Source of the DNA: Saprospiraceae bacterium
Lineage (GTDB): Bacteria > Bacteroidota > Bacteroidia > Chitinophagales > Saprospiraceae
Assembly (NCBI GenBank): GCA_013042795.1
Contig: JABDPK010000170.1
Span: forward strand, 1 to 13,270
Direction: 5' to 3'
Length of the DNA stretch: 13,270 nucleotides
Shown: piece after piece, positions 8,136-11,717 of the stretch
Position numbering within the stretch: position 1 is the first letter of the stretch
Layout of the letters: each line of letters starts with the position of its first letter
Notes under the pieces: model-generated
The model's input: the letters and a program-made list of their open reading frames with translations, nothing else
Told to the model about the DNA's origin: nothing
Database searches by the model: none
Made by a program: the position numbers and the translations under genes

Positions 8136-9494
8136 CTACATCAAAACACTTTCATTTGTGTAATCGAAGTGAATCAGGACATCGAATAATTTGGATAATG
8201 GCATGAATTGGGTATACCTGCTGATCAGCTTGTAATTAAAACCTGCCCCACATTGGTAAACGCGTTGCTGATTCCTGAAATATTCCGCAGCCGCCCCTGC
8301 ATGGTTAAGATCATTGAATATGATGTAGTGCTGGTCACCGTCCAGTTCAGTAAGCGTATTGTTTACCGTGAGACAGGAAGTATAAGGAACTATATGTTTC
8401 CTGACCCCGCCTGCGAAGGAGTTATTAGGTCCGGAAACAAACGCATTCAGGCATCCCCTGCCAAATGAAAAACCAACATTTAAATAATTATCCTGGTGTT
8501 CCTGTTTCAGATATCCACCCATCCAGTCTGGTCCACCCAAAGATCTGCTATCCATCACGTGTGCGTTGTGCGCCCAGACAGCCACTTTCGCTTCATAAGC
8601 AACAATACGCTGCCACCAGTTGCTATATACAGCCATAAGGGAATCCCTTGGAGTACCAAAGGACTGGATCCTGTAGATATATTCACGATGTTTGATGACA
8701 TGAGCTGCCATTAATGCAATCTGGAATTCATAATCTGAAGATGCCCCTGCAAATTCCTCTTCATGGGAAAGGAGGTATTGGTACACATAATCTACACGTT
8801 CCTTGTTTGTCTCTTTCTGCATATCCGACACAGAATCATATTCCTGCAAATTCGTAGATAAGGAAGCATAATAAGCGGCAATAGTTAATGCTGAATCGGG
8901 TTGTACTTTTTCAAGGTACTTGTACACAATCTCTTTTTCTATTTCGAAATCTCCTCCTTGTGGATCACAACCAACAAAAAAGATCTTGTTGCCATCAGTT
9001 CTTTCCAGGTTGATGTCATGAATCCACTGTGCCAAATCCCTGACTTCCTGTGTATCATATACCCAGTAATAACTTTGGTTCAATGCACTGTCAGCATCGC
9101 CTATTCCCTTGACAACGAAATCATTAATTTTCATAGCATGACCCCATGGAATTTCAAAGATGATCGCATTGAAATTTTTTTCCAGTGCAAGAGATCTAAA
9201 AATCTTGTCTTTCATCTGAAAAAATTCTGATGTGCCATGTGTACCCTCGCCCAGACCAACAATTTTTGCGTTGCCAAGGTATTCAATCAGCCGATCCAAT
9301 CTAGTTTCTTCTATCAAAGGATCAGAAGATTCAAATGGAACTGCTTCCTCGTTTAGCTCATTGACGACCAATTGTTCCTCTTCGGTCAGGATGCATGGTT
9401 CAGGAGCTGAAAACATTTCGTCTTCGCTACATGAAAAAACCCCGAATAAACAAATCGCAAAAATAAATTGTCGAATATTAAAAGTACTGGACAT
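8136..9494 (-). CDS. Erythromycin-esterase-family lipoprotein
   Basis: A 452-residue protein. The N-terminus has a lipoprotein signal (FAICLFGVFSC, acylated Cys22) followed by SEDE. This acidic stretch resembles the lipoprotein surface-export signals described in Bacteroidota, so a surface location is inferred. The catalytic domain shows IVGLGEGTHGTSEFFQMKDKIFR (78-100), with the Glu83 and His86 that correspond to the EreB active site. FEIPWG follows, then VAVWAHNAHV (304-313), with His309 and His312 matching the later conserved His pair. PRDSLMAVYSNWW (282-294) is also typical. Known members hydrolyse the macrolide lactone, but many homologues are uncharacterised esterases, and drug resistance should not be assumed. 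The gene converges on the transpeptidase-like gene (48-base gap) and is divergent from the ArsR gene (76-base gap), whose operator lies in that gap. Confidence 0.87.
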   Translation of the reverse strand: MSSTFNIRQFIFAICLFGVFSCSEDEMFSAPEPCILTEEEQLVVNELNEEAVPFESSDPLIEETRLDRLIEYLGNAKIVGLGEGTHGTSEFFQMKDKIFRSLALEKNFNAIIFEIPWGHAMKINDFVVKGIGDADSALNQSYYWVYDTQEVRDLAQWIHDINLERTDGNKIFFVGCDPQGGDFEIEKEIVYKYLEKVQPDSALTIAAYYASLSTNLQEYDSVSDMQKETNKERVDYVYQYLLSHEEEFAGASSDYEFQIALMAAHVIKHREYIYRIQSFGTPRDSLMAVYSNWWQRIVAYEAKVAVWAHNAHVMDSRSLGGPDWMGGYLKQEHQDNYLNVGFSFGRGCLNAFVSGPNNSFAGGVRKHIVPYTSCLTVNNTLTELDGDQHYIIFNDLNHAGAAAEYFRNQQRVYQCGAGFNYKLISRYTQFMPLSKLFDVLIHFDYTNESVLM

Positions 9495-9535
9495 ACAACT
9501 AAATTAATTTATACCAGAATAAAATCTGTAATTAC

Positions 9536-9566
9536 TTGCAACTTAAATTAGTATATCGTAATATTG
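9536..9566 (+). promoter_or_regulatory. Candidate promoter of the ArsR gene
   Basis: TTG at 9536-9538 and TAATATTG at 9559-9566 are separated by 20 bases. They fit the Bacteroidota pattern TTTG or TTG followed by TAnnTTTG with one mismatch. The second box lies inside the palindromic operator, so a bound repressor would block the polymerase. Transcription starting a few bases later would begin about at the ATG (9571), giving a leaderless or nearly leaderless mRNA. This is inference from pattern. Confidence 0.45.
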
Positions 9567-9572
9567 CGATAT
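9553..9572. promoter_or_regulatory. ArsR operator, copy 1, overlapping the start codon
   Basis: A 20-base near-palindrome: ATATCG, then TAATATTG, then CGATAT, symmetric at 18 of 20 positions. It reaches into the first two bases of the ArsR ATG. Bases 9554-9570 (TATCGTAATATTGCGAT) are repeated exactly at 9910-9926. Position, symmetry and the exact second copy make an ArsR binding site the best explanation, with autorepression as in other ArsR systems. Confidence 0.75.
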
Positions 9573-9891
9573 GGGAGCAAGTAAAACAGAATTATTCTCT
9601 GAATATCACAACAGGCTGGCAGGTATGGCAAAAGCTTTGGCTCATCCTGCTCGTATTGCTATTCTTGAACTTCTAGTCAAGAAAGGAACTTGTGTATGTG
9701 GAGATCTTGTGGATGAATTACCACTTTCCCAGGCAACGGTATCACAACATTTGAAAGCAATGAAAAATGCAGGGATCCTCAAAGGAGAGGTTGACGGGCC
9801 ATACAGATGTTATTGTGTTGATATGAAACAATGCAACAATTTGAGAAATTCAATTGAGCAATTATTCTCAAAACTGGATACTTGTTGTTAA
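9571..9891 (+). CDS. ArsR/SmtB-family metal-responsive repressor
   Basis: A 106-residue winged-helix repressor. [21 protein letters not shown] (19-39) is the conserved first helices. [11 protein letters not shown] (40-50) carries a CxC pair (C41, C43), matching the metal-sensing ELCVCDL motif of ArsR and Cad[19 protein letters not shown] (53-70) is the recognition helix, followed by a wing with CYC (C80, C82). The protein ends TCC. Seven Cys in 106 residues is high and points to a thiophilic ligand such as arsenite, antimonite, cadmium, lead or copper(I); which one cannot be told. ATG 9571 gives the N-terminus I recall for close Bacteroidota relatives (MG.TKTE.F...), so it is preferred over Met19. 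It is divergent from the esterase gene and followed after 69 bases by a tiny Cys-rich peptide gene with the same operator. The family releases DNA on binding its ligand. Confidence 0.92.
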
Positions 9892-9909
9892 TATTTTTTT
9901 GGCTATAGC

Positions 9910-9926
9910 TATCGTAATATTGCGAT
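9910..9926. promoter_or_regulatory. ArsR operator, copy 2, before the Cys-rich peptide gene
   Basis: TATCGTAATATTGCGAT, identical over 17 bases to the site upstream of the ArsR gene. Its 16-base core is palindromic at 14 of 16 positions. It lies 18 bases after the ArsR stop and 34 bases before the peptide ATG, with an A/T-only stretch following it up to the final G of the leader. The TAATATTG inside could again serve as the -7 element, giving the peptide its own repressed promoter, although no TTG lies at the ideal distance upstream. Confidence 0.72.
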
Positions 9927-9960
9927 TTATTATTTATTAATTTATTTAAAAAATTTAAAG

Positions 9961-10059
9961 ATGAAGAAAATATTTGCACTTGCGGCAGTAGTAATCGGGG
10001 GTATCGCTTTGGCTTGTTGTGACTTGCCATGCTGTACCGGCGGCGGCGTCTGCTGTTAA
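9961..10059 (+). CDS. Tiny cysteine-rich secreted peptide or lipopeptide, 32 residues
   Basis: The frame reads M-K-K, then a hydrophobic signal segment (IFALAAVVIGGIALA), then the mature part CCDLPCCTGGGVCC, and stops at TAA 10057-10059. ALA before Cys19 suits signal peptidase I. IALAC also satisfies the loose lipoprotein box, so either a free 14-residue peptide or a lipid-anchored one is possible. Six of 14 mature residues are Cys, in three CC pairs spaced by three and five residues. A short A-rich AAAG precedes the ATG. The gene sits 69 bases after the ArsR gene and has its own copy of the ArsR operator, so induction by the same ligand is likely. The probable role is binding of a thiophilic metal or metalloid in the envelope, though no family is known to me. 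The gene is short, but signal peptide, Cys pattern and operator together argue that it is real. Confidence 0.72.
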   Translation: MKKIFALAAVVIGGIALACCDLPCCTGGGVCC

Positions 10060-10092
10060 TTCGGAAAATATCTTATTGATATAAAAATGAAA

Positions 10093-10117
10093 AGCCCCGG
10101 CTCAAAGAGTCGGGGCT
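10093..10117 (-). terminator. Intrinsic terminator of the OmpA-family gene
   Basis: The arms AGCCCCGGCTC (10093-10103) and GAGTCGGGGCT (10107-10117) form an 11-bp GC-rich stem, with one wobble position, around an AAA loop. Read on the minus strand it is followed by TTTCATTTTT, the T-rich tract expected of a terminator for the OmpA-family gene that stops 41 bases before it. On the plus strand the stem could also stop transcripts from the Cys-rich peptide gene, but no T-run follows there. Confidence 0.85.
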
Positions 10118-10157
10118 CATCAGTTATGAAAAAACTATTTAAAGTTTTCCGTTTCTT

Positions 10158-11717
10158 TTATCCTTTCTTTCCTTTCTTCTCAACTACTCTCTTCACTGTA
10201 CTACCTGTTACGATTGCTCTTCTGTTCAATCTTCTTCCTTCGGCAGTTGCATTATCAGCTATAGGATTGGCCTCTCCATGACCTTCATAGTATAATCTTT
10301 CCGGATCAATTCCAGCTTTCACAAGAGAGTTGTAAACTTTCTTAGCTCTCCTTGTAGACATTCTCATGTTTGAAGATTCTGATCCCATTGAATCGGAGTA
10401 ACCTCCAATATTAAGGTATGCATCAGGATATGCATTGGCAAATTCAACGATACTTGAAATATGATCATCGTATCCTTCTGCAGGAATAGTTCCTCTTTCA
10501 AACAAAATCATTGGACTTGCATATCCATTGATGATTTCTTCTGTAGTAGGTTTTCTGACCTTAGGACAACCATCAAGTTCAGGAATACCAGCTTCATCAG
10601 GACATTTGTCAAATTTGTCGCCTATTCCGTCTCCATCTGCATCAGGACATCCTTTTGCATCAGCTGGTCCCGCCTCGTCAGGACAAGCATCATCTTTGTC
10701 TGCAATACCATCTCCATCACCATCAGGGCAACCCTGAAGATCTCCTTTAGTATTTATACAGTTATCATTTTCATCATCGAATCCGTCACCATCAGTATCA
10801 GGAATCGGGCAACCGTTATATCTTGAAACACCTGATTCCTCAGGACATTCATCAACATTATCACCAACGCCGTCGCCATCAGTATCCGGGCAACCTGCAT
10901 ACATGGCATCACCTGCTATTTCAGGACAAGCATCATCTCCATCGATAACACCATCACCGTCAGTGTCCGGACAACCATTATACTGCGCCAAACCTGCAAC
11001 CTGAGGACAATCATCTTCTCCGTCGATGATTCCATCAAGGTCTGAATCCGGGCAACCGTCATATTCTTTTAATCCTGGTGTTTCAGGACAAGCGTCTTTA
11101 CTGTCTGCTACCTTATCTCCATCCATATCTTTCTTTCCTAGATTGAATCCAATACCTATTTCAGTGATCAAATGGTTGTCATTACTGTCATCAGTAACAT
11201 TACCATCATAATCATCACCGCTGTAGAGGCCATACTGTGTATGAACGAACAATCCGAAAACATCGGAAATATTGTATTTGAACCCAAGTCCAACAGTAGG
11301 CAATACAAGCCCGCTGTCATCAGCACTTGAACCTCCATCAGCACCAAAACTTGCATAACCAAGTCCTGCTGAAAGGAAAGGAATAAATTTAGTGTCCTTC
11401 AGGATTTTGAACTGTCCATGAAGTCCAAGATGCATAGCACTTGCTGTAAATTGAGATACACCATTGTCATCTTCATACCCTGTTTTACCAAAGTTTGCAG
11501 TAAATGAAGCATCGAATCTTGGGCTTAAATATTTTGAAACCCTCGCACCAAATATAGATTCAGGAGAACTGAACACAAGGTTTGAGCCATAGTCTCCTGT
11601 ATAGTCAAGTTTACCCCAACTTAAACCTACGCTCCAGGGCGCAACATCAGACTGAGCCGATACGGTAAAAGTCAGACTCATGAATAATATTAATGTAAAT
11701 AAGATTTGCTTTTTCAT
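10158..11717 (-). CDS. OmpA-family outer membrane protein with TSP type-3 repeats
   Basis: A 519-residue protein. It has a signal peptide (1-21, cleavage near VSA|Q). Residues about 25-195 form an N-terminal beta-barrel-like domain rich in alternating aromatic and Gly residues (GLGYASFGADGG, GLGFKYNISDVFGLFVHTQYG, ending IGIGFNLG). Seven thrombospondin type-3 repeats (about 197-385) follow. The last part is a C-terminal OmpA peptidoglycan-binding domain (about 400-505). In it, IGGYSDSMGSESSNMRMSTRRAKKVYNSL holds the conserved Asp (D442), and GRRLNRRAIV holds the conserved Arg near 499-500 that binds diaminopimelate in the family. The protein ends in a Lys-rich tail (KKGKKG). It is expected to tie the outer membrane to peptidoglycan, with the calcium-binding repeats as a stiff spacer. 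It follows gabD on the same strand after 168 bases and probably has its own promoter. Confidence 0.93.
   Translation of the reverse strand: MKKQILFTLILFMSLTFTVSAQSDVAPWSVGLSWGKLDYTGDYGSNLVFSSPESIFGARVSKYLSPRFDASFTANFGKTGYEDDNGVSQFTASAMHLGLHGQFKILKDTKFIPFLSAGLGYASFGADGGSSADDSGLVLPTVGLGFKYNISDVFGLFVHTQYGLYSGDDYDGNVTDDSNDNHLITEIGIGFNLGKKDMDGDKVADSKDACPETPGLKEYDGCPDSDLDGIIDGEDDCPQVAGLAQYNGCPDTDGDGVIDGDDACPEIAGDAMYAGCPDTDGDGVGDNVDECPEESGVSRYNGCPIPDTDGDGFDDENDNCINTKGDLQGCPDGDGDGIADKDDACPDEAGPADAKGCPDADGDGIGDKFDKCPDEAGIPELDGCPKVRKPTTEEIINGYASPMILFERGTIPAEGYDDHISSIVEFANAYPDAYLNIGGYSDSMGSESSNMRMSTRRAKKVYNSLVKAGIDPERLYYEGHGEANPIADNATAEGRRLNRRAIVTGSTVKRVVEKKGKKG
10563..11129 (-). repeat. Seven tandem TSP type-3 (calcium-binding) repeats
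   Basis: Repeats of about 25-29 codons, each of the form D-x-D-x-D-G-x-x-D followed by D-x-C-P, a variable Gly-containing stretch and GCP. The first two repeats are degenerate (DMDGDKVAD, DSDLDGIID). The fifth has CINTKG in place of the usual CPE.AG and is shortened. The DNA is correspondingly repetitive, with recurring ATCACCATC- and GGGCAACC-like words on the plus strand. This makes recombination or misassembly in this segment more likely than elsewhere. Confidence 0.9.

Follow-up and report, generated by a model that had tools for sequence, protein, structure and literature searches.

The window, a stretch of 13,270 nucleotides from a Saprospiraceae bacterium, carries an arsR gene followed by a gene for a 32-residue peptide with three CC pairs, and an exact copy of the same 17-base putative operator precedes each of the two genes. 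Both the peptide gene and its control by an arsenic-type repressor have good support, and we state them with high confidence. That the two genes together would work as an arsenic-inducible thiol trap is our preferred reading, which we consider reasonably probable. The repressor and the operator are of an already known kind; the peptide as a partner of ArsR is new among metal-chelating small proteins, and the open-licence full text searched, outside whose scope most subscription papers and preprints lie, held no earlier description of an ArsR-controlled CC peptide. The features of the region are:

8136-9494, minus strand: erythromycin-esterase family protein (PF05139), divergent from arsR.
9554..9570, no strand: operator 1, TATCGTAATATTGCGAT, immediately before the arsR start codon.
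9571..9891, plus strand: arsR, 106 aa, ArArsR-like repressor with Cys 41, 43, 80, 82, 88, 105 and 106.
9894..9926, plus strand: 33-nt block TTTTTTTGGCTATAGCTATCGTAATATTGCGAT, before the peptide gene and ending in operator 2.
9910..9926, no strand: operator 2, exact copy of TATCGTAATATTGCGAT, 18 nt past the arsR stop codon and 34 nt before the peptide ATG.
9961..10059, plus strand: peptide gene, 32 aa, MKKIFALAAVVIGGIALACCDLPCCTGGGVCC, made of a hydrophobic leader plus CCDLPCCTGGGVCC, with three CC pairs in all.
10092..10118, no strand: GC-rich hairpin 3' of the peptide gene, from a permissive hairpin search run without shuffle control.
10158-11717, minus strand: OmpA-like protein, convergent with the peptide gene.

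The repressor gene and the operators are as an earlier note on this DNA had described them: a 106-residue ArsR with seven cysteines lies at 9571-9891 on the plus strand, and exact 17-base copies stand before both genes, at 9554-9570 and 9910-9926. In a Pfam and NCBIfam scan, which covered seven window proteins only, the window ArsR fell into the ArsR/SmtB winged-helix family, with NF033788 and HTH_5 both above cut-off. The arsR start codon is directly adjoined by operator 1; the transcript may be leaderless, and TAATATTG within this operator resembles the Bacteroidota -7 box. Both neighbours of the arsR-peptide pair lie on the opposite strand and look unrelated to it. The erythromycin-esterase family protein has a lipoprotein-like start, as judged by eye, and scores far under the NCBIfam cut-offs for resistance enzymes. 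The earlier note also remarked that the window contains no pump, no P-type ATPase and no arsenate reductase, with which the ORF list, read by eye, agrees. A consensus terminator scan of both strands from 9480 to 10200 found none, and the hairpin at 10092-10118 may chiefly serve the convergent ompA-like gene, because no plus-strand T run follows it.

Conservation of the peptide was followed through its repressor. Scanning genomes with an alignment of ArsR proteins yielded 80 loci, one of which (L001, in a Saprospiraceae draft genome) led to a family sample of 298 genomes; 221 of these held an ArsR at E 1e-18 or better, and the best 30 plus 40 less similar loci were read. The best 30 arsR loci belong to one Saprospiraceae-like group, and in 25 of them (L086, L093-L115 and L118, here called the clade) a diverged CC peptide follows arsR. 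A CC peptide was found in 2 of the 40 less similar loci, namely L177 and L182, the latter a weak case in which the ORF is about 250 nt away and the 160-nt scan met no operator. Among the wider 80 loci, 79 of them readable (L003 is cut), 2 had a CC peptide: L080 and L001, the second being the same place as L086. Peptides were chosen for at least two CC pairs, the position of the pairs being no part of the choice. Nevertheless a CC lies at most 3 residues from the end in all 29 peptides, window included, and 27 end exactly in CC.

The peptide sequences are otherwise strongly diverged (MKKLFFAVVGLASLAAITCCDLPCCSGACC, MKKLFALAGILSAVALACCNLPCCSAGCC and MKNILSIVAGLLGTAAVVAACCPPGCCGGACC are examples). 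When the 400 nt after arsR were dinucleotide-shuffled, an ORF of at most 60 aa with at least two CC pairs arose in 20 of 5,200 shuffles; all 26 actual carrier loci, the window and the 25 from the clade, have such an ORF. The 171 cysteine codons of the peptides are mixed, with 92 TGC and 79 TGT, and pN/pS is 0.20-0.62 in the 31 peptide pairs with at least 50% identity. This choice of pairs favours low pN/pS, so the TGT/TGC mixing is the cleaner evidence. A chance ORF, with the second operator serving arsR feedback or a non-coding RNA, would suit a 32-aa product known here from genes alone, but the shuffle control and the codon mixing rule it out for practical purposes, and conservation across genomes also argues against it; we regard it as extremely improbable. 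The earlier note had proposed that missing conservation or missing coding constraint in relatives would count against its reading. That comparison was run and the peptide survived it, on shuffles, conservation and synonymous-biased change. Thus the Cys-rich 32-residue ORF, linked to ArsR and to duplicated operators, is real and conserved. The statement that the gene is too short for standard gene callers was overstated: Prodigal requires 90 nt, and the 99 nt of the gene just exceed this minimum. Genes of this size are nonetheless easily missed by annotation.

The peptide is probably the last gene of its transcript, because the sole plus-strand ORF of at least 60 aa before the ompA-like gene (64 aa, 10087-10281, starting between the peptide gene and the convergent gene) overlaps that gene. 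The same ORF, as the only candidate downstream, counts against a regulatory leader or sensor peptide that would control something else through translation or cysteine oxidation, as does the synonymous-biased change along the peptide. The very short product with its own operator, and the arsM or DUF6428 gene that follows in L080 and L177, would fit such a role, which we judge very improbable.

Searches with the peptide itself returned little. A 40-aa relative gave no candidate in a set of 5.8 billion proteins. With at most 20 candidates scored per genome, a peptide profile matched in 8 of 396 genomes of an order sample (6 known carriers and 2 matches in longer frames, of 168 and 190 aa) and in 3 of 395 genomes of a phylum sample (the seed genome and 2 longer frames, of 323 and 204 aa). 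At E 0.001 the profile recovered 20 of 28 carriers, all 20 being its training rows, and it missed all 7 carriers absent from those rows. Since it is blind to carriers outside its training rows, the sample counts hardly bear on rarity outside the family. Viral contigs gave five distant ArsR-like matches, and plasmids gave ArsR matches at about 64% identity or less.

The operator before the peptide gene was looked for across the clade by scanning 160 nt per locus. In 19 of the 25 loci the slot after arsR contains a match at 16 of 16 positions of the operator consensus (Y at position 5 and R at position 12 allowed). In L105 the second operator is present, but beyond the range of the 160-nt scan. 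Second operators are degenerate, at 13-14 of 16 positions, in L097, L102 and L111, which are 3 of the 4 leaderless clade peptides. The operator is also embedded in a longer conserved block. The stretch TTTTTTTGGCTATAGCTATCG that leads into the operator has exactly the same letters in the window and in 13 of the 25 clade loci, each time ahead of the peptide gene, and no such block with operator was found in the labelled non-carrier loci. The GGCTATAGC portion of the block at 9894-9926 lies outside the operator. From their sequence, the window copies of TATCGTAATATTGCGAT are putative ArsR binding sites.

A search of the 25 clade genomes with ATCGTAATATTRCGAT, allowing 0-1 mismatches and thus passing over weaker operators, placed operator sites at arsR and the peptide gene only in 17 genomes; in one of these, G140, the contig begins inside arsR and the peptide site alone is visible. 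A further operator-like site occurs in the other 8 genomes, and 3 of these sites lie at second arsR genes (G028, with arsM, L187; G010, with DUF6428, L188; and G153). The pattern read backwards matched in 1 of 26 genomes. The suggestion that further operon members stand elsewhere is therefore borne out at most in the 8 genomes with an additional site, and in the 17 others none was seen.

In an alignment of 28 ArsR sequences, window included, Cys 41, 43, 80, 82 and 106 are invariant and Cys 105 is nearly so. The residues Cys41, Cys80 and Cys82, together with Cys43 and the C-terminal CC, numbered as in ArArsR, are all present in the window ArsR. ArArsR, from the ArarsRMC operon of Arsenicibacter rosenii SM-1, is reported to respond to arsenite and methylarsenite; in the published account sensing is done by Cys41, Cys80 and Cys82, while Cys43 of the CxC is not needed and the C-terminal Cys pair is dispensable for sensing (PMC11868830). 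Its DNase I footprint contains TATCGTAATATTGCGAT, the 17-mer of the window letter for letter (PMC11868830). The two repressors are thus alike in belonging to Bacteroidota, in Cys41/43/80/82, in the C-terminal CC and in having TATCGTAATATTGCGAT at hand, within the footprint in one case and as a putative operator in the other. The paper mentions Spirosoma oryzae as carrying a close homologue (PMC11868830), and this species also appears among our scanned loci (L056, 63% identity over query residues 1-84). Because the cysteine positions and the operator 17-mer are those of ArArsR, the ligand of the window ArsR is very probably trivalent arsenic, As(III) or methylarsenite. The earlier note had assigned the CxC motif to the sensing of thiophilic metals or metalloids; the ligand can now be narrowed to these arsenicals, and by analogy with ArArsR the role given to the CxC as a whole does not stand, Cys43 being unnecessary there.

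It might be argued that arsenic likeness is confined to the regulator and that the peptide deals with another thiophilic metal, such as Cu, Cd, Zn or Hg. CC-rich peptides can bind many soft metals. In addition, the ArArsR tests that we draw on concern arsenicals only (PMC11868830). The shared cysteine positions and the identical 17-mer nevertheless point to arsenic, and so does the slot after arsR in relatives, which mostly holds arsM or DUF6428, with acr3 following in L080. We therefore consider another metal quite improbable.

The ArsR proteins of the clade also group together. In a tree of 147 sequences, built from a short alignment and leaving 67 of 142 inner branches open, 25 clade rows, the window included, form one group (SH-aLRT 93, not starred). 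The repressors of L080, L177 and L182 fall outside it, and 4 changes were counted, against a shuffled mean of 26. L114 (arsR start off the contig), L162 (length) and L001, L081, L082 and L087-L092 (duplicates, distant or cut rows) were left out of the tree.

The location of the peptide was considered from its N-terminus. The window leader has a mean hydropathy of 2.70 over 15 residues, and its designation as a signal peptide was judged by eye and from this value. A hydrophobic stretch (15-residue mean hydropathy of at least 1.8) is present in 22 of the 29 peptides, mostly after MK or MKK; the other 7, from clade loci L097, L102, L105 and L111 and three cases outside the clade, are without a hydrophobic leader. 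Accordingly, the earlier view of a secreted or envelope-exposed product is compatible with the 22 peptides that have a leader and is weakened as a conserved property: secretion was rejected as a general feature and an envelope role is not general, because 7 peptides lack the leader. The existence of leaderless forms indicates that the CC part is the conserved thing and that anchoring in the membrane characterises the main branch. A lipoprotein reading was also rejected; a lipobox-like pattern occurs in only 3 of 29 peptides, the window peptide not among them, and the residue before the first CC varies. By the positive-inside rule, the CC pairs behind the leader would face away from the cytoplasm. 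For the main branch, that the peptide acts beyond the inner membrane is a reasonable guess, which we put just short of even.

The ends of the leaders vary among peptides (AIT, IYP, AWP), the window having ALA before CC. This ALA, which suits signal peptidase I, and the small size would agree with a secreted thiol peptide acting on other cells, as a bacteriocin-like factor or a signal. Such a function is hardly credible given that leader ends are not conserved, that leaderless forms exist and that an arsenic-type repressor is the sole control seen.

Outside the clade the slot is occupied by larger genes, labelled by motif: arsM in 61 loci, DUF6428 in 43 and others in 16. Two DUF6428 proteins and the arsM product of L080 were matched against Pfam and NCBIfam. 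CC-x-CC tails occur in ArsM and DUF6428 (PF20001) of Bacteroidota ars loci, encoded as the first gene after arsR (L001-L080 and L116-L188). A CC lies at most 3 residues from the C-terminus in 52 of the 61 arsM-slot proteins and 42 of the 43 DUF6428-slot proteins, with a double CC-x-CC tail in 44 of the former type and 19 of the latter. In L001-L085, 67 of 679 ORFs of at least 150 aa end in a CC tail, and 63 of the 67 are slot genes. The exact tails CCAPGCC and CCPPGCC are found in 4 of the 29 peptides (L094; L106, L109, L115) and at ArsM ends, and protein ends with CCTPGGGCC resemble the CCTGGGVCC of the window. Since slot proteins often end in CC-x-CC, the peptide resembles a tail of this kind on its own; in ArsM and DUF6428 the tail forms the end of a larger protein, whereas the peptide is free-standing and mostly lies behind a hydrophobic helix. 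This resemblance is one of likeness only and would be compatible with common descent or with convergence. The C-terminal pair of ArArsR being dispensable for sensing, as published, CC ends in these loci need not all matter. DUF6428 was not named in the open-licence full text searched, and the likeness among the CC ends of ArsR, ArsM, DUF6428 and the peptide offers a testable idea for the role of DUF6428 and of the tails.

Carriers and non-carriers also differ in their arsenic genes. Acr3 above cut-off was found in 3 of 28 carriers and 14 of 40 non-carriers (Fisher p 0.026), and the corresponding numbers for a close ArsM, meaning E 1e-70 or better, were 7 of 28 and 22 of 40 (Fisher p 0.024), where both p values ignore relatedness and the close-ArsM threshold was chosen once the table was known. 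In non-carrier G226, Acr3 is in pieces and below cut-off. ArsP exceeded its cut-off in 3 of 40 non-carriers and, weakly, in 1 of 28 carriers; ArsB did so in 0 of 68 genomes, and only 1 of 14 control genomes reached the cut-off with the ArsB model. Neither Acr3 above cut-off nor a close ArsM was seen in 19 of the 25 clade genomes. The same holds for 17 of the 40 non-carriers, which weakens the peptide as a pump replacement in the sense of a clean rule. The lack of Acr3 and ArsM is thus suggestive only, because the genomes are mostly drafts, the groups are internally related and these 17 non-carriers behave alike. As 16 of the 17 are of the DUF6428 slot type, DUF6428 may act as an arsenic effector in its own right.

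These counts bear on a possible role of the peptide as a small adaptor or chaperone at the membrane, whose helix would dock on a transporter or envelope protein and whose CC pairs would pass trivalent arsenic on rather than store it. The hydrophobic segment in 22 of 29 peptides accords with this, and vicinal Cys pairs are likely arsenite ligands in ArsD. So does L080, in which arsR is followed by a leaderless CC peptide, arsM, acr3 and a gene for an arsC-like low-molecular-weight phosphatase (below the NCBIfam ArsC cut-offs). However, Acr3, ArsP and ArsB rarely or never pass their cut-offs in carriers, so that an adaptor would lack an obvious partner, and leaderless peptides exist. We consider an adaptor unlikely, though less so than the other alternatives.

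Altogether, we favour the thiol trap, which would operate as follows. Without arsenic, ArsR would occupy both operators and keep arsR and the peptide gene shut off. Trivalent arsenic would bind ArsR through Cys41, Cys80 and Cys82, by analogy with ArArsR, ArsR would be released, and the peptide would be made. Its cysteine pairs would then bind the arsenical, a step that we infer and regard as probable, and in this way the peptide could be protective. In the main branch, the hydrophobic N-terminus would anchor the peptide in the inner membrane, or export it across, with the pairs outside. A stoichiometric trap may be costly compared with a pump, and CC pairs outside the cytoplasm may be prone to oxidation. 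More tentatively, the unit might be a minimal defence in which one repressor and one membrane-tethered CC microprotein make up the whole operator-linked response, replacing pump, reductase or methyltransferase; the peptide would then be part of a mobile CC-tail module, which Bacteroidota would also have attached to ArsM and DUF6428 as a common handle for passing arsenic on. This extension is possible rather than probable.

The usual bacterial answers to arsenic are pumps, reductases and methyltransferases. Intracellular chelation is given as an arsenic strategy 'in eukaryotes' in the ArArsR paper (PMC11868830). If our reading is true, bacteria would also use chelation, through a gene devoted to it and perhaps at or outside the membrane; the arsR-peptide unit is small enough to be synthesised and assayed in full.

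Among known small proteins, the window peptide had no Pfam match at E up to 10 and no NCBIfam match above cut-off; five other peptides searched against Pfam gave two weak matches below cut-off, neither to a metallothionein. Bacterial metallothioneins of the SmtA and MymT type are likewise short, Cys-rich and under a metal-sensing repressor. The peptide differs from them in its 32 aa, in window cysteines that occur as neighbouring pairs only, in its hydrophobic leader and in its arsenic-type repressor. ArsD, which is soluble and folded, has about 120 aa and supplies the ArsA ATPase, resembles the peptide in having vicinal Cys pairs within an ars regulon; the peptide is far shorter and without Pfam match, and no ArsA partner was seen in the window ORF list, read by eye. 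Among the closest systems is also that of ArArsR, in which a single promoter ahead of arsR serves arsM and arsC as well under ArArsR control, and the main text of that study does not contain the words 'peptide' or 'small protein' (PMC11868830). In the window, unlike the ArArsR unit, a second operator precedes a tiny CC peptide, with no other gene nearby.
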